The notes beneath the pieces are model-generated. The model searched no databases, was not told the DNA's origin, and saw only the letters and a list, made by a program, of their open reading frames with translations. Both the position numbers and the translations under genes were made by a program. A stretch of 21,078 bases of DNA from a virus: IMG/VR virus record IMGVR_UViG_3300008996_000055, positions 1 to 21,078 of that record. The stretch is one strand, 5' to 3'. Position 1 is the first letter of the stretch. The number at the start of each line of letters is the position of its first letter. Shown here in pieces: positions 6,863-16,680 of the stretch.

Positions 6863-7541
6863 ACAAACCCTCGCGGTCAAAGGCTTTCACCCACATGGCA
6901 CAAATATCAGAGCGAACAATGTCATCCACGGTAAACTCAACGTGGGGGACAGGCAGTCTCTGCTTGTGAATCATGTCAATGATTGTCTTTAATCCCGAGG
7001 TTGACCTCAGGTCTGATTGCTTAATATCCCCATTCAATAACACCTGTGAGTTCTCCCCAATGCGGGTCAAGAACATCTTCATCTCTGCGGGAGATGTGTT
7101 CTGAGCCTCATCGAGGATCACAAAGGAGTTATTAAAGGTTCGACCACGCATGACCTCGAAAGGCACGATGTCGATATTCTTCTTTCGAGAGGCGATACCG
7201 TACACCTCTTCACCAAGTTCCGCCTGTAGCACATCGGTAAAGGGGATGACCCAAGGAGCCATCTTCTCTTCCATAGTGCCTGGGAAAAACCCAAGAGATC
7301 TCCCTGCCGCCACGTTTGGGCGGGTCAGGATAATCTTGTCGATCTTCCCAGCAGCGTAAAGTTTAGCCGCATACACCGAGGCAATGTAGGTCTTGCCTGT
7401 CCCTGCACACCCAGTCACAATTACTTGTGGGCTGGTCTTTAGGGCTTTGATGTAGGCGGCTTGTTTATCATTCTTAGGGGACAAAGGGGGTAGCCCCCCA
7501 GTGTCCTTAGCTCGATACTTGGATGTTCTTTTTGATGTCAT
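6861..7541 (-). CDS. phoH: PhoH-like ATPase
   Basis: This 226-residue protein has the PhoH P-loop ATPase core. Walker A is GCAGTGKT (about residues 44-51), followed by the family segment ILTRPNVAAGRSLGFFPGTM. Walker B is FVILDEAQNTSPAEMKMFLTR (acidic pair about 144-145). A further conserved NGDIKQSDL segment follows. PhoH homologues are common in aquatic phages; the host protein is phosphate-starvation induced, and the phage role is not settled (RNA metabolism has been proposed). The ATG at 7541 shares its first base with the RNR stop (TAATG), so I prefer it over the upstream in-frame start that would lie inside RNR. The third phage promoter overlaps its end. Confidence 0.93.
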   Translation of the reverse strand: MTSKRTSKYRAKDTGGLPPLSPKNDKQAAYIKALKTSPQVIVTGCAGTGKTYIASVYAAKLYAAGKIDKIILTRPNVAAGRSLGFFPGTMEEKMAPWVIPFTDVLQAELGEEVYGIASRKKNIDIVPFEVMRGRTFNNSFVILDEAQNTSPAEMKMFLTRIGENSQVLLNGDIKQSDLRSTSGLKTIIDMIHKQRLPVPHVEFTVDDIVRSDICAMWVKAFDREGL

Positions 7542-9529
7542 TAGCGAATTGGACAAGCCCCTGTTGCACACTCTTCCCCTTGGATCTCATCAAAGCTATT
7601 CGCTCGGTCAATCTCCAAAGGCTGGATGTTAGCGGAGTATTCATCAAATACTTCCTTGGTCACCACTTCCTGAGGGAGGTAGAGGTAGCCCAAGTCTTTA
7701 GCGGTCAGTGTAGGATCAGCTCGGAATAGGAAGCTCACACCCACATACACGTCCCAGTTATCCAACAGCCAATCAACAATCTGATCTACCTCATCTACTG
7801 AGTAGCTGATGGTGGCTGATACGTTTTGTTGGCACCAGTTGTTCATGAGCATCTTGTAACGCTCAAGCTGACTAATGGCTGACTCTTGGTTCACCTCAAG
7901 GATTGTGCCGTTCTTCTCTACCTTATCGAAAGGAACGTCATCCCAACTTACGGGGAACGTAATCAGGACTGACTCAGAGTCGGTAGGGTTATCAAACACA
8001 CGGTAACCTGCGGATCGACATAGGGGAACCAGAGGGTCATGCTTGGAGAAGTTTACGTTGTTAAACACATACTTCCCTAGAGGCTTGTGGACACCCTCAG
8101 TCGTATCCATAATTTTGGACAGGGTACCGCTTGGCTTGATAGTGGTTACGTTTTTTGGGCGTGGGGTCTCCAGCTCATCTGCCATAGAGTATGCACCAGC
8201 CGTAGCCACACGCTGTAGTTCAGCGTAGTCATAGCTCCCCAAGTCAGGGCGGCGAACAATACCTGTCAAACCTACACCACACAAACGAAGGAACTCGTTG
8301 TTGAGGTGCCATGCTTCCTGAAGGATTTCATCCCGCAGATCCACACAGGTCTGTCGGTAGTTAGCCCGTGCTGCCAAGGTTACTGCTCGGCGTAAACCTG
8401 AGGAGTCACCTTTGAACTTACCTACGTCAACCTCAGTAAGGTTACAGAAGCTCTTGTTGCCCAACAGGATCTCAGCACAGGGGTTGCAACCCTTGAACCA
8501 GGGGGCACGTTTAACTGCGGTCTGAGCGTTAATAAAGCCAGGCTCAGAGCCACCAGCCTCAACCATCATGTCAAAGATTTCTTTGAGTTGACTATAGCTG
8601 GGCTTTGCTTTGAACAGGAGCGAGTTGTTTGACTGTGCCCGTTGTACGTTGTTTACCCACCAGTCTTTCTTGGCTACGGCAAACTCTTCCCACTCATCTT
8701 CACCATAGTTAAAGAGAGCAATTTCAGCACTGCGGCGAGAAGACAGCACAGTACCCAACCAGTTGACAACATCAAGAATATCAATACGTGTAAGCAAACT
8801 ACCAGCACGTTTATTGAGAATCTCCACGATAGCTGTATAGGCTTTAGCAATAGCTGCATCGCCTGATGAAATCCAACCATAACCTTTTAGTCGTTCACCC
8901 GCTGGGCGGATCTGTGAGAAGTCCAGCACCAACCGTTCAGCACGGTAGGGGTGGGCAATGATTTTACCAATGGACTTTGCCCATGCTTCTGCTGAGTCAC
9001 CTACGGCAATTGTCCAAGTACGGGTATCTGGGTCAAAGGTTTCAACGTTTTTCTCGTTGCCACCTTTAGCTGTACGCTCAGAGCGGATTACTCGGACTTC
9101 TTTGAGAGGTACTTGGAAGCCCGTAAGTTGCCCCACGATAGGGCGGAAGCCCACACCGCATCCTTGAAGGAGCAGCCATAGGCAGTCAACCACGTCTTGA
9201 ACTGTTTCAACGTGGGTAAAAGAACAGTTAAATTGAGATGCTTCACGTTTCTTTGCTACATCAGTACCGCCTAGCCACAGTGAGCGACCAGACATCAGGA
9301 CTTTACGCTCCATCATATACTGACGGAGTTCTTCGATTTCTAACGCTTCCTGAACTGACAGTGGGCTACCTTTAGCTCGTTCCCAGAGCCACGTCTGGTG
9401 TTGGAGTACACGGTCTACAGTCTGTGACCATGATTCAAATTCGGTACCATCGGCATTGAGTGGGCGGTTATATGTGCGGCGAGTAATTAGCTGGGCACGG
9501 AGGGAGGGGGTTTTATCGGTTGTCGCCAT
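7541..9529 (-). CDS. Class II (B12-dependent) ribonucleoside triphosphate reductase
   Basis: The 662-residue product fits monomeric adenosylcobalamin-dependent reductases of the Lactobacillus leichmannii RTPR type. It has the first redox cysteine in FNCSF (about C102), and the thiyl-radical loop GCNPCAEILLGNKSFCNLTEV with C351, E353 and C362 at the same spacing as C408/E410/C419 in RTPR. It also has the segment IRPAGERLKGYG and a C-terminal CATGACPIR tail with the shuttle cysteines (CxxxxC, cf. CEGGACPIK). It reduces ribonucleotides to deoxyribonucleotides for phage replication and needs cobalamin from the host. The reading frame overlaps the end of the MazG-like gene by 17 bases. The AAGGA site is unusually close (two bases) to the ATG. 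No small subunit or activase gene is needed or present. Confidence 0.95.
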   Translation of the reverse strand: MATTDKTPSLRAQLITRRTYNRPLNADGTEFESWSQTVDRVLQHQTWLWERAKGSPLSVQEALEIEELRQYMMERKVLMSGRSLWLGGTDVAKKREASQFNCSFTHVETVQDVVDCLWLLLQGCGVGFRPIVGQLTGFQVPLKEVRVIRSERTAKGGNEKNVETFDPDTRTWTIAVGDSAEAWAKSIGKIIAHPYRAERLVLDFSQIRPAGERLKGYGWISSGDAAIAKAYTAIVEILNKRAGSLLTRIDILDVVNWLGTVLSSRRSAEIALFNYGEDEWEEFAVAKKDWWVNNVQRAQSNNSLLFKAKPSYSQLKEIFDMMVEAGGSEPGFINAQTAVKRAPWFKGCNPCAEILLGNKSFCNLTEVDVGKFKGDSSGLRRAVTLAARANYRQTCVDLRDEILQEAWHLNNEFLRLCGVGLTGIVRRPDLGSYDYAELQRVATAGAYSMADELETPRPKNVTTIKPSGTLSKIMDTTEGVHKPLGKYVFNNVNFSKHDPLVPLCRSAGYRVFDNPTDSESVLITFPVSWDDVPFDKVEKNGTILEVNQESAISQLERYKMLMNNWCQQNVSATISYSVDEVDQIVDWLLDNWDVYVGVSFLFRADPTLTAKDLGYLYLPQEVVTKEVFDEYSANIQPLEIDRANSFDEIQGEECATGACPIR

Positions 9530-10095: not shown

Positions 10096-10853
10096 AGTTT
10101 TACCTCTTTAGTTGTCTCGTTGTATTCCCCATAGCGGAGGATGCGGCTGACTTGTGCCTGAACCAAGGCTTCCTCTTCACAGAGTCCTGCCTTCTGGTAG
10201 GCTTTCACTACGTGGCTCCAGTAGATCTCTCGGAGTTGCTGAGGGTTCGCCCACGGGGTTCCCTCATCTAGAGCTGCTTGGATAATCTTCTGAGCAGTCT
10301 TCTCGCCGATACCTGGGCAACCCGCATAGCCATCCGTGGGATCGCCTGTGAGGGTCTGCATCATGTGGTACTTGTCAGCTTGGTGCTCGTTGACCTCAAA
10401 GGTCTCACCCGTTCCCATGTGGTAGTGTGACCCTGGGATAGTCTTGAGATCCTTGTCGATGGTACACACAATGTATGTATCCTCGCTGGGTGTGGTGGCT
10501 TGGATGCCAATCACATCGTCCCCCTCAAGGGTCTCCACTACTTTAGACTCGTAGCTCTCCATAGCATACTCACGGAGGAACTTGAGTAACAGGGGCTTAC
10601 GGGTACCTAAGCGGTTGGACTTATACGTAGGTAGTACAGTCTTGCGCCAATTTTTGGAATCTGAGAACACCAACACAAAGTTGTCAGCCTCGACATCATC
10701 CACGATGGTAGTCACAGCATGGTCAAAGTGTTGGGTAGCTTCATCCTCAAAGCTGTGTAGTGTCCAGATACCATCCCCCCAGTCGGTGGGGGTCTCGCTT
10801 ACAGCCGCAGCTTGGTAGGCGAGGATGTCAGCGTCTATGAGAGCAACGCGCAT
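10080..10853 (-). CDS. 5'-3' exonuclease, FEN-like (T7 gp6-like)
   Basis: From the ATG at 10853 (AAAGGAG seven bases upstream) the product is 257 residues. It shows the FEN/5'-nuclease metal sites: ALIDADILAYQAA (D7, D9), LEGDDVIGIQATT (E110, D112, D113) and TIDKDLKTIPG (D133, D135). The helix-three-turn region is GDPTDGYAGCPGIGEKTAQK (D171, D174), followed by KII. T7 gp6 (300 aa) degrades host DNA, removes RNA primers and acts in concatemer processing. The start overlaps the ThyX end by 19 bases, so translation is probably coupled. The predicted frame can be read further upstream to 10886, but that region lacks family similarity. Confidence 0.94.
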   Translation of the reverse strand: MRVALIDADILAYQAAAVSETPTDWGDGIWTLHSFEDEATQHFDHAVTTIVDDVEADNFVLVFSDSKNWRKTVLPTYKSNRLGTRKPLLLKFLREYAMESYESKVVETLEGDDVIGIQATTPSEDTYIVCTIDKDLKTIPGSHYHMGTGETFEVNEHQADKYHMMQTLTGDPTDGYAGCPGIGEKTAQKIIQAALDEGTPWANPQQLREIYWSHVVKAYQKAGLCEEEALVQAQVSRILRYGEYNETTKEVKLWTPN

Positions 10854-11506
10854 AACTTCTCCTTTTTGGGAACTAGATATTCCCAAGAGTGTGGGAAGAG
10901 GGACTTCATGTTCCGATCAATAGCCTTGGCTACATCTCGGGTCTCTTGCTGGGTATGATCATCCAAGCGTAAGACGCACATTCTAGCCCAAGCATAGAGG
11001 GTTCCCGTCCAGATCCATTCGGTCATGGTGTTCTGTGGGAGAACCATACGGGCTTGCTCGGGGCAGACTCCTGATGCCAGAAGATCCTCATACGTTTTAA
11101 GGGCAATTGCGTTAGTGGAGCGAATAACACCGTGATGTACGGCTACCTCACCACTACTACCTTGCTTGATGTTCCCCTCAGGTTTTCCCCGCCAAACAGT
11201 CGGGAAGAAAAACTCTGGGGTGTGGTCAACATAACGCCGACTGACTTCGTTCCACGCAAAGCCAACGGTGTGTTTGACCAGTTGACGTGCAACAAAGATA
11301 GGAGCCTTGACTCGGAAGGTGGCTGAGACGTGAGCAAAGGGAGACCAGTGGTTATGTTCAGCCAGGTACTTAATCAGTTTCTTATCAGAGAGGTACTGAA
11401 ACTCTTCGTGTTCCTTATCAAAACTTACTCGTGCGGCGTTAACAACGGACAGGTCACTGCCCATGTGGTCTCGATACTCTACATCAATCTCAGCTATTTT
11501 AATCAT
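10835..11506 (-). CDS. thyX: Flavin-dependent thymidylate synthase ThyX
   Basis: This 223-residue protein is a typical ThyX length. It contains HNHWSPFAHVSATFRVKAPI with the FAD-contacting histidines, then ARQLVKHTVGFAWNEVSRRY, which is the ThyX signature region, and PEQARMVLPQNTMTEW with the conserved Arg-x-x-Leu-Pro. The canonical RHR-x7/8-S motif reads KHT-x8-S here (K78, H79, T80, S89), a variant I associate with phage ThyX such as that of SIO1. The enzyme makes dTMP from dUMP using FAD, NADPH and methylenetetrahydrofolate. With RNR it would supply thymidine nucleotides. It starts 8 bases inside the end of the HExxH gene; the best ribosome-site match (AAGGA) is rather far upstream. Confidence 0.94.
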   Translation of the reverse strand: MIKIAEIDVEYRDHMGSDLSVVNAARVSFDKEHEEFQYLSDKKLIKYLAEHNHWSPFAHVSATFRVKAPIFVARQLVKHTVGFAWNEVSRRYVDHTPEFFFPTVWRGKPEGNIKQGSSGEVAVHHGVIRSTNAIALKTYEDLLASGVCPEQARMVLPQNTMTEWIWTGTLYAWARMCVLRLDDHTQQETRDVAKAIDRNMKSLFPHSWEYLVPKKEKLCALLS

Positions 11507-14231: not shown

Positions 14232-15833
14232 TTAGAACTCATCAACGTTGACCGCCCCAAACCCCTCTACGAAGGGAGCGAGGCGACCAGTCTCTCGGTC
14301 ATAGGATAACCGACCTGCTTCCCCAGTCTCACCACTGAAGCGGTTCTTTAGAACTCTCAGAGTTGTGACATTGGGGTTCTCACCCTGTTGATCTCGCTCC
14401 AAGCCAATCACCATATCGGAGAGTTGGGCAATGGCATGAGATCCACGGAGTTGGTTGAGGGCAGTACGTGCCCCCTGTTCGTGTCCTCGGTCACCTTCAG
14501 GTCTGCGTAGGTGAGACACGAGGAACATCCCCACGCCTGTCTCTTCAACAAGGGTGCGTAGGGATGTCATGGCATTATCTATGAGACGGCGTTCATCACC
14601 GTCCCCCAAGCCCGAAACAACAATAGAAAGATGATCCAGAATAATCCAAGAACAGCCACAAGAACGAGCCAGGAATCTAATACGGGAAAGTAAGTTATCA
14701 ATACCGCTACTGCCCCAATGATCGTAAAGGAAACAACGACCATTACCAACAGTAGCATCGTAACTAGCGCGGAGATCAGCTTCACTGACTCCCTCCTTAT
14801 TTAAGTGTAGTGGTTTGTTGAGGTGGATTCCCATCAACCCCAAAGCGGTGCGCCGAGGGTTCTCTTCAAGCATGATCATGCCAACAGTCTCTCCCTTCAA
14901 CAGGAGGTGGTGGGCGATCTCTCGCACAACTGCTGACTTACCTATGCCAGAACCTGCGGTAAGCGTAACCAGCTCACCCCTACGAGAACCACGAGTTACC
15001 TCGTTAAGTTCATCCCAAGGGTAGGGTATCGCTTGGATAGTCTCAGTCTTGGAGACTTCCTCCCACAAGTCAGCCCCAGACAAGATGCCATCAGGACGGT
15101 ACGCTTTAGCGTTCCATATTGCCTGAATGATTTCATCTGCCTTACCGTTGACCAGACACTCGTTAGCGTCCTTCATCGGTAGTGATGCAATCTTAGCTTT
15201 GCCTGGGCTGAACAACTCGGCGCACTCGCTTGCCGCCGCTTGACCTGGTTCATCCATGTCGAACATCAAGATTATCTCATCGAATAATTCGTAGTAATCG
15301 AAGTTCAACTTCATGTGCTTCTTAGCACCTTGAGCACCGTTAGGTACGGAGACCACAGCCCACTTGTTACCTTGGGATTGACTCACGCTCATCGCATCAA
15401 TCTCACCCTCAGTAACTACCAGCTTCTTCCCTTTGCCCCACAAGGGAGCACCAAAGGGGAGAGCCTTGGTAATGTCACCCAGTACCTTGAAGCTCTTGTC
15501 AGAGCCTCGGATCTTCTGGGCAACCATTGTCCCCGCCTTGTCATAGTAGGGGGCAATCTGTACTTTCTTTCCTGCTAGTTCACCGACTTGGTATCCAAAT
15601 TTACGGCAGGTATCTTCCCGAATTTTTCGTTTAGATAAATCCATGAACTCACCAGTGATGAGATCACCTGCACGTTTCTTTGGGCTAGGGGCTGGTGTAG
15701 TGCCATCCCCCTTAACATGAGCTTGGCAACTGAAACAGAACTGGTGCCCATCAGAATACAAAGAGTTGGCATCTGACGAACCGCAGTTGTCACAAGGTAT
15801 GTGTCTTAAGAAATTGCTTTCGTCCTGTTCCAT
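14232..15833 (-). CDS. Primase-helicase (T7 gp4-like)
   Basis: From the ATG at 15833 the protein has 533 residues (T7 gp4: 566). The N-terminal zinc finger is CDNCGSS...CFSC (C14, C17, C33, C36). The TOPRIM primase core includes KLVVTEGEIDAMSV (E142) and IILMFDMDEPGQAA (D192, D194), and the segment LPMKDANECLVNG. The helicase domain has Walker A GSGIGKS (294-300), MIMLEENPRR and a Walker B-like WIILDHLSIV, then FLVSHLRRPEGDRGHEQGAR. It unwinds DNA as a hexamer and makes primers. The first 44 bases overlap the methyltransferase gene. A Met at residue 64 with GGTGAG five bases upstream (15644) could start a helicase-only form like T7 gp4B. An upstream TTG (15851) is in frame but lacks a ribosome site. 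Confidence 0.96.
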   Translation of the reverse strand: MEQDESNFLRHIPCDNCGSSDANSLYSDGHQFCFSCQAHVKGDGTTPAPSPKKRAGDLITGEFMDLSKRKIREDTCRKFGYQVGELAGKKVQIAPYYDKAGTMVAQKIRGSDKSFKVLGDITKALPFGAPLWGKGKKLVVTEGEIDAMSVSQSQGNKWAVVSVPNGAQGAKKHMKLNFDYYELFDEIILMFDMDEPGQAAASECAELFSPGKAKIASLPMKDANECLVNGKADEIIQAIWNAKAYRPDGILSGADLWEEVSKTETIQAIPYPWDELNEVTRGSRRGELVTLTAGSGIGKSAVVREIAHHLLLKGETVGMIMLEENPRRTALGLMGIHLNKPLHLNKEGVSEADLRASYDATVGNGRCFLYDHWGSSGIDNLLSRIRFLARSCGCSWIILDHLSIVVSGLGDGDERRLIDNAMTSLRTLVEETGVGMFLVSHLRRPEGDRGHEQGARTALNQLRGSHAIAQLSDMVIGLERDQQGENPNVTTLRVLKNRFSGETGEAGRLSYDRETGRLAPFVEGFGAVNVDEF

Positions 15834-16680
15834 GTAATATCGCTTTTCCAATTAGTTCGGGTATTTGAGGTACTACGGCGTTTCCGAGTTGCTTAAGTCT
15901 GTCCACTCGGTTGGGAACCCCATGAGCCACTCGACCCAAGTTGGGTTCAGTTGCCCAGAAGTTTTCGATTGGTTGTCCGTCCACTGTACTGCAACGTCCA
16001 AGGTATCCCAGCTCGGCTTTCCATTCCTTACCCTGCCGCCAAGATAACCCCCCTTGTGATCCCGTGTGGTCGGTGTCGGCCACCGCCTGTGAGGTGTAGG
16101 ACTCAAGGAGTCCGTTACTGCTGCACCTAGATTCCACCCATGTTTCCCCGATAGATGGCTCGGGGCTATCCCATGCCCTCCCGTCATCGCTGTGGGGGTA
16201 GGAAATAATCCAGATCCTGTCCCTTTGGTGAGGGGCACCAACGCTGGAAGCGGGTAAACAATGCCATTCCGCATCATACCCGATCTCAAAGAGCGACCTG
16301 AGCACTTGATCCAGTCCTCTAGAGCGAAGGGCTGAGACGTTTTCAATGATGACAAACTTCGGGCTGGTTTCTTTGATGAGTCTGTGAAACTCCCACCAGA
16401 GTCCTGATCTCCCACCTTCGAGACCCTCCCCTTTTCCTGCGAGGCTAATGTCTTGACAGGGGAAGCCCCCACAAATAACGTCAATTGTTCCAAGGTCACT
16501 TCCTTTAAGTGTAGAGACATCGGGGTATATAGGCACATGAGACCAGTGTTTCTTCAGGACTCGCTGTGCCTTCTCATCTACCTCGCAAAATGCAACCGTC
16601 TCAAACCCTTGCGTACTCTCCAGCCCTAAGCTGAAGCCTCCTATACCTGAAAATAAATCCAGAACTTTAAGTGGTTGCAT
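15790..16680 (-). CDS. C5-cytosine DNA methyltransferase (Dcm-type)
   Basis: The 296-residue protein has the ordered C5-MTase motifs: I VLDLFSGIGGFSLGL (7-20), II-like FCEVDEKAQ, IV CGGFPCQDIS with catalytic C75, VI IIENVSAL (E113-N114-V115), VIII HQRDRIWIIS, and X RLKQLGNAVVPQIPELIGKA. The target-recognition region between VIII and X is short and the target cannot be read from the sequence. No restriction endonuclease is nearby, so it is an orphan enzyme that could protect phage DNA from host restriction. It has a good AGGAG site four bases before the ATG and is placed between amidase and primase-helicase, a position without a T7 counterpart. Its 3' end overlaps the helicase gene by 44 bases, and a long second frame lies inside it. 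Confidence 0.95.
   Translation of the reverse strand: MQPLKVLDLFSGIGGFSLGLESTQGFETVAFCEVDEKAQRVLKKHWSHVPIYPDVSTLKGSDLGTIDVICGGFPCQDISLAGKGEGLEGGRSGLWWEFHRLIKETSPKFVIIENVSALRSRGLDQVLRSLFEIGYDAEWHCLPASSVGAPHQRDRIWIISYPHSDDGRAWDSPEPSIGETWVESRCSSNGLLESYTSQAVADTDHTGSQGGLSWRQGKEWKAELGYLGRCSTVDGQPIENFWATEPNLGRVAHGVPNRVDRLKQLGNAVVPQIPELIGKAILHGTGRKQFLKTHTL
15873..16538 (-). CDS. Candidate overlapping gene inside the methyltransferase (221-aa second frame)
   Basis: A frame shifted by one base from the methyltransferase is open for 221 codons. Its product is not random-looking: LTLFVGASPVKTLASQ, then SLRSGMMRNGIVYPLPALVP, GLFPTPTAMTGG, RWPTPTTRDHKGGYLGG, and SGQLNPTWVEWLMGFPTEWT near the end. I recognise these W-P-T-P-T, RSGMMRNG and LNPxWVEWLMGFP patterns as recurring in many annotated phage and bacterial proteins, often next to or instead of C5-methyltransferases. 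Here they arise from the same DNA as motifs IV to X of the enzyme. The ATG at 16538 has no clear ribosome site. It could be a real dual-coding gene, or only the mirror of a conserved enzyme that databases often annotate in the wrong frame. Confidence 0.35.
   Translation of the reverse strand: MCLYTPMSLHLKEVTLEQLTLFVGASPVKTLASQEKGRVSKVGDQDSGGSFTDSSKKPARSLSSLKTSQPFALEDWIKCSGRSLRSGMMRNGIVYPLPALVPLTKGTGSGLFPTPTAMTGGHGIAPSHLSGKHGWNLGAAVTDSLSPTPHRRWPTPTTRDHKGGYLGGRVRNGKPSWDTLDVAVQWTDNQSKTSGQLNPTWVEWLMGFPTEWTDLSNSETP

Follow-up and report, generated by a model that had tools for sequence, protein, structure and literature searches.

Two overlapping reading frames in a phage cytosine methyltransferase gene, very likely encoding the two parts of one enzyme

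The methyltransferase locus and the start of its second frame

The window, i.e. the whole stretch of 21,078 bases that was analysed, is a virus record with T7-like genes in the order RNA polymerase, ssDNA-binding protein, endonuclease and amidase, followed by methyltransferase, primase/helicase and DNA polymerase. The same T7-like phage carries genes for thymidylate synthase (10835-11506) and ribonucleotide reductase (7541-9529), as indicated by PHROG matches. The methyltransferase open reading frame, referred to as alpha, lies on the minus strand (15790..16680) and encodes 296 aa. Its PF00145 profile match and its motifs I-VIII and X identify it as a C5-cytosine methyltransferase, probably the large subunit of such an enzyme. 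Hallmarks of the superfamily are all present on this strand: motif I (DLFSGIGG, 16636..16659), motif IV with the catalytic PCQ (16453..16461), motif VI (ENV, 16336..16344), motif VIII (QRDRI, 16213..16227) and motif X (LGNAVVP, 15868..15888). Alpha matches TIGR00675 above cut-off; its alignment to PF00145 covers profile positions 1-168 of 324 only, the counterpart of residues 12-193 in M.HhaI. Conservation is found at codons 5-160 and 242-281, and no column in between is conserved at 80% or more.

A second minus-strand open reading frame, beta, runs in the +1 frame of alpha and counts 221 aa when read from its first ATG (15873..16538); it is supported by a match to phrog_1008 (E 2.5e-24) and by stop and wobble statistics. 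An earlier sequence-only reading had pointed out this open frame of 221 codons together with four protein-like segments, all of which are indeed present: RSGMMRNGIVY (beta residues 85-95), LFPTPTA (111-117), WPTPTTRD (153-160) and LNPTWVEWLMGFP (197-209). The overlap with motifs IV, VI, VIII and X that it described is full for the first three, but extends only to the first residues of motif X, the beta stop being at alpha codon 268. LFPTPTA (16188..16208) and WPTPTTRD (16059..16082), both on the minus strand, form the first and second PTP blocks of a predicted TRD. LNPTWVEWLMGFP (15912..15950, minus strand) corresponds to motif IX; alpha wobble identity is 0.95-1.00 here, and in single-chain relatives the motif directly precedes motif X. 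The stretch that is unconserved in alpha and appears to code for the TRD in beta comprises alpha codons 166-241 (15958..16185, minus strand), as judged from column conservation and from divergence by codon position.

Translation of beta probably starts at TTG 16493 rather than at ATG 16538, judging from the sequence around both codons. The ATG, the first in beta, has no ribosome-binding site (Shine-Dalgarno energy -1.0), whereas the TTG, a weakly canonical start in the window, has an energy of -5.6 and is preceded at a distance of 5 nt by a putative internal Shine-Dalgarno sequence, AAAGGAAG (16499..16506, minus strand), located in alpha codons K59-G60-S61. Homologous loci carry AAAGGAG at the position of AAAGGAAG, and the start codons available to beta in these loci are concentrated at alpha codons 63-64; a best Shine-Dalgarno site of -4 kcal or better is found in 92 of 110 loci, as compared to 27 of 94 in the +2-frame control. 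The onset of constraint described below coincides with this region, and initiation is therefore likely to be internal, near 16493, which would give a beta of about 206 aa (15873..16493, minus strand).

Selection on the second frame

Viral loci were picked by the alpha protein alone, yielding 80 at 44-99% identity, of which 79 non-redundant ones were used for stop counts; expected numbers were derived from synonymous codon shuffles within each gene. In all 80 loci the +1 frame stays open for 133-360 codons, as against 26-155 for the +2 frame. Between codons 70 and 262, 77 of the 79 loci have no stop in the +1 frame (2.2 expected), and the total is 4 stops against 357 expected, as opposed to 780 against 759 in the +2 frame. 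Outside beta, in codons 1-44, +1 stops are abundant (219 observed, 158 expected). The few stops counted within codons 70-262 are situated at the edges of that block (edge effects): in the core of the 79 loci, 12,787 codons contain none in the +1 frame (299 expected) and 650 in the +2 frame (654 expected), and in the core of 114 loci (codons 95-256) none is found in 18,915 codons where 447 are expected. The depletion recurs in two very different alpha groups, the SEN5 type (0 against 210 expected) and the type of mycobacteriophage SG4 (1 against 56 expected). Canonical C5-methyltransferases, which served as control, have 654 +1 stops against 917 expected; the shuffle null thus overestimates stops a little, which leaves the contrast beyond doubt.

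The wobble positions reveal the same boundaries. Among 101 alphas less than 85% identical, identity at fourfold-degenerate sites is essentially at its null before beta (0.292 in codons 1-46, null 0.278), rises to 0.429 in codons 70-115, 0.568 in codons 116-165 and 0.864 in codons 242-262, where motif IX is encoded and many single sites reach 0.95-1.00, and returns to 0.307 after the beta stop (codons 270-285, null 0.279). In finer steps, codons 47-54 are still free and constraint sets in at alpha codons 55-69; selection on the second frame hence does not begin at the ATG from which it had originally been read.

Divergence between 27 independent close pairs, resolved by alpha codon position, shows which of the two proteins is constrained where. 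Before beta, positions 1/2/3 diverge by 0.124/0.078/0.410, within the overlap the third-position value is down to 0.20-0.28, and after beta the pattern is 0.235/0.176/0.482. In codons 166-241 the order is inverted (0.448/0.298/0.281): the freest position is alpha position 1, which is beta position 3, so that beta is constrained there and alpha follows. In codons 242-262, which encode motif IX, the values are 0.178/0.088/0.074. The second frame is a real coding sequence, far beyond chance and no annotation artefact. Stops do not appear freely in it and variation does not follow the enzyme frame alone, as stop counts, wobble identity and close-pair divergence decisively show.

Division of the enzyme between the frames and alternative explanations

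In C5-methyltransferases, the TRD and motif IX sit between motifs VIII and X (PMC5944983; PMC3404938). Alpha does not have the single-chain layout of the PF00145/M.HhaI type with motifs I-X and TRD on one chain. Of 78 window-type loci, 70 have motif IX-like sequence in the +1 frame and none has it in frame 0, whereas 42 of 57 canonical loci have it in frame 0 and none in the +1 frame. Beta is conserved at R-S-G-M-M-R-N-G, in at least two PTP blocks and, most strongly, at G-x-LNPxWVEWLMGFPxGWTDL. Selection acts on both frames, and the motifs that they encode complement one another within a single enzyme; because the TRD and motif IX are absent from alpha and encoded in beta, the two products appear to be parts of the same enzyme, with beta very probably being the missing DNA-recognition part of alpha. 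Searches with the beta sequence gave no match in Pfam, NCBIfam or PDB, and AlphaFold, given beta alone with 82 homologues, produced no usable model (pLDDT 54.8); phrog_1008, which beta does match, is labelled DNA methyltransferase. Alignments mixing alpha and beta fragments misplaced fragments and were left out.

Relatives from a genome scan with closer alpha alignment and from a further viral scan carry the same elements in other arrangements. In four actinobacterial loci (L417, L421, L422, L424) and three phages (L451-L453), the stretch between motifs VIII and X carries both the PTP blocks and motif IX in the enzyme frame, frame 0, motif IX reading, for example, VFPEWMMGYPxGWVTD. Mixed forms exist as well: motif IX lies in frame 0 of L175, L418, L437, L438, L461 and L464, of which L175, L418, L461 and L464 still have PTP blocks in the +1 frame. 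The +1-frame TRD of L418 is 63% identical to the frame-0 TRD of L417 and 60% identical to that of L421 over 63 aa. The beta profile aligns to the set of four actinobacterial sequences with a hhalign probability of 94.8 (E 4.9e-8; the template is shallow, Neff 1.6) and, when the alignment is extended, colinearly through motif IX. The AlphaFold model of single-chain L422 (pTM 0.71) has motifs IX and X at pLDDT >90 and the TRD at low confidence, and it superimposes with residues 2-378 on M.HhaI (Z 23.4, rmsd 3.4, 245 residues aligned). TRD and motif IX elements have evidently switched frames more than once by way of small indels. L421-like single-chain relatives also retain a short +1 open reading frame with the beta N-terminal motif.

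We consider it very likely, from motif content and comparison with relatives, that the locus gives rise to a two-subunit C5-cytosine DNA methyltransferase of the M.EcoHK31I kind from one DNA stretch read in two frames. The enzyme could be formed in the following manner: alpha (296 aa) would supply the cofactor-binding and catalytic motifs I-VIII as well as motif X. Beta (about 206-221 aa), presumably initiated at the internal ribosome-binding site inside alpha, would contribute what alpha is missing from the small domain, namely the TRD and motif IX. Both may then assemble into the equivalent of a monomeric C5-methyltransferase; motif complementarity and precedent point to this assembly and to methylation, and likewise to a protective role in which the enzyme presumably marks phage DNA against restriction.

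Three other explanations have to be weighed against this two-subunit enzyme. Beta might be a mere shadow, its openness and conservation reflecting alpha and the codon usage of alpha, and the sequence-only reading had accordingly offered an annotation error mirroring a conserved enzyme as one of two outcomes. The overlap of the beta frame with strongly conserved alpha motifs and the absence of a Pfam or NCBIfam family for beta would fit such an artefact, but its probability is negligible: 447 expected stops are missing while the +2 frame is at expectation, wobble sites are fixed solely between beta start and stop, canonical methyltransferases keep many +1 stops (654 of 917 expected), and divergence in alpha codons 166-241 peaks at the beta wobble position. 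Stops, wobble and divergence refute the annotation error. A programmed +1 frameshift, by which a minority of ribosomes would shift after motif VIII and produce an alpha-TRD-IX fusion, with no independent beta, would account for the location of TRD and motif IX after motif VIII, the fusion resembling a monomer without motif X. The lack of motif X in this product is at the same time an argument against it, and together with the constraint on beta, which begins ~100 codons upstream of the end of motif VIII and thus of any useful shift site, makes frameshifting improbable; the clustering of start codons at alpha codons 63-64 and Shine-Dalgarno sites above control also speak for separate initiation.

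Beta could also have a function of its own, e.g. in counter-defence, overprinted in the methyltransferase, with the resemblance to TRD and motif IX being secondary. The N-terminal half of beta (residues 16-110, window 16209-16493), which overlaps alpha motifs IV-VIII, shows conservation of its own at SPAKTS, SGMMRNG and YPLPPL, and a role in TRD and motif IX alone leaves this conservation, including S-G-M-M-R-N-G, unexplained; isolated beta also has no confident fold. A separate function is nevertheless highly improbable, as alpha has neither motif IX nor a conserved TRD, single-chain relatives have the same elements in frame 0, and beta was in every surveyed case located inside an alpha gene. 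The check for a second frame without the enzyme frame found none: all 78 loci picked by beta have it in the +1 frame of a methyltransferase. The other outcome foreseen from the sequence, a widespread uncharacterised overlapping gene, thus holds as far as coding is concerned, although beta is probably not a separate unknown gene but the TRD and motif IX of the same enzyme. In a wider and rather doubtful scenario, dual-frame encoding would be ancestral and dominant in a large mobile-element branch of C5-methyltransferases and among the most widespread deep same-strand overlaps in prokaryotes, the TRD/IX frame would have moved between chains by small indels several times, and the N-terminal half of beta would have an additional function.

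Known two-polypeptide enzymes, distribution and annotation

M.EcoHK31I consists of subunits of 309 and 176 aa, the gene for the large one also encoding the small one in a different frame, and has the target YGGCCR; M.EaeI is a further two-polypeptide C5-methyltransferase. The sizes found here, 296 and about 206-221 aa, are close to those of M.EcoHK31I, and the large gene likewise contains the small polypeptide in a second frame. Since TRDs differ greatly from locus to locus, a target specificity shared with M.EcoHK31I (YGGCCR) would not be expected. In this natural two-polypeptide enzyme, the large subunit contains motifs I-VIII and X and the small subunit motif IX (PMC3404938), as do alpha, where none of 78 loci has a frame-0 motif IX, and beta, respectively. 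The predicted TRD of M.EcoHK31I has been assigned to its large subunit (PMC3404938), in contrast to the TRD in beta at the loci described here; M.EcoHK31I is compared by description. It is moreover part of a bacterial restriction-modification system, unlike the phage locus. M.AquI (CYCGRG) shares the natural split of catalytic and recognition parts (PMC3404938), but it is split in the variable region and has motifs IX and X on its small subunit, whereas motif X stays on alpha here. M.HhaI and the single-chain relatives have the same motifs and fold, but all parts in one frame and on one chain. Beta-frame proteins are already clustered in four PHROG families (phrog_1008, 31772, 26627 and 27243), two of which are labelled 'DNA methyltransferase'; none of the four mentions that the frames overlap or what beta does, and phrog_1008 is matched by 82 of 82 beta members. 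No pertinent report of a gene overlapping a phage cytosine methyltransferase turned up in a search of the open-licence literature, and earlier notice elsewhere is possible. The two-frame principle is already known from M.EcoHK31I, whereas the breadth and the placement of the TRD in beta appear under-recognised; these two points and the single-chain and mixed relatives have not previously been stated in the open-licence papers searched.

Dual coding is found in P2-like and other enterobacterial phages, epsilon15, mycobacteriophages and a Microcystis phage, and on plasmids of Leptospira, Synechocystis, Nostoc, Paenibacillus, Acinetobacter and the archaeon Methanomethylovorans. Bacterial genomes from many phyla have it as well, and SEN5-type beta has matches in 227 phage records. 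Hundreds of phages, plasmids and bacteria hence share an arrangement for which one bacterial enzyme had been studied. In this old family, for which sampling is deep, two proteins co-evolve on shared bases, and natural single-chain relatives reveal the content of each frame. Placing the recognition domain in the second frame opens both the swapping of specificities and the TRD assignment in M.EcoHK31I to direct tests.

Public annotation of these loci is inconsistent: most records have alpha only, JC01 and Kc259 have beta only, and Leyra (gp61/62) and K1H (gp32/33) have both frames annotated as nested DNA methyltransferases. The loci with beta-only or both-frame annotation are L162 (886-1860), L163 (1261-1752), L468 (339-1376 and 523-1227) and L469 (429-1253 and 517-1209). 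Since records usually name one frame, half an enzyme is missing, hypothetical or filed as a second methyltransferase in hundreds of phages, and the annotated alpha, when expressed alone, would probably be an inactive protein. In mycobacteriophage Llama (L168, 1441-2200) and in L349, both frames are disrupted at once by a one-base indel close to alpha codon 123; the remnants are annotated as two DNA methylases (gp74 and gp75), and this natural double loss occurs in several related phages. On the Paenibacillus plasmid (L173, 1441-2931), the motif IX segment occurs twice in the +1 frame, as GQLNPTWVECLMGFP and as GQLNPAWVECLMGFP, which suggests a local duplication.
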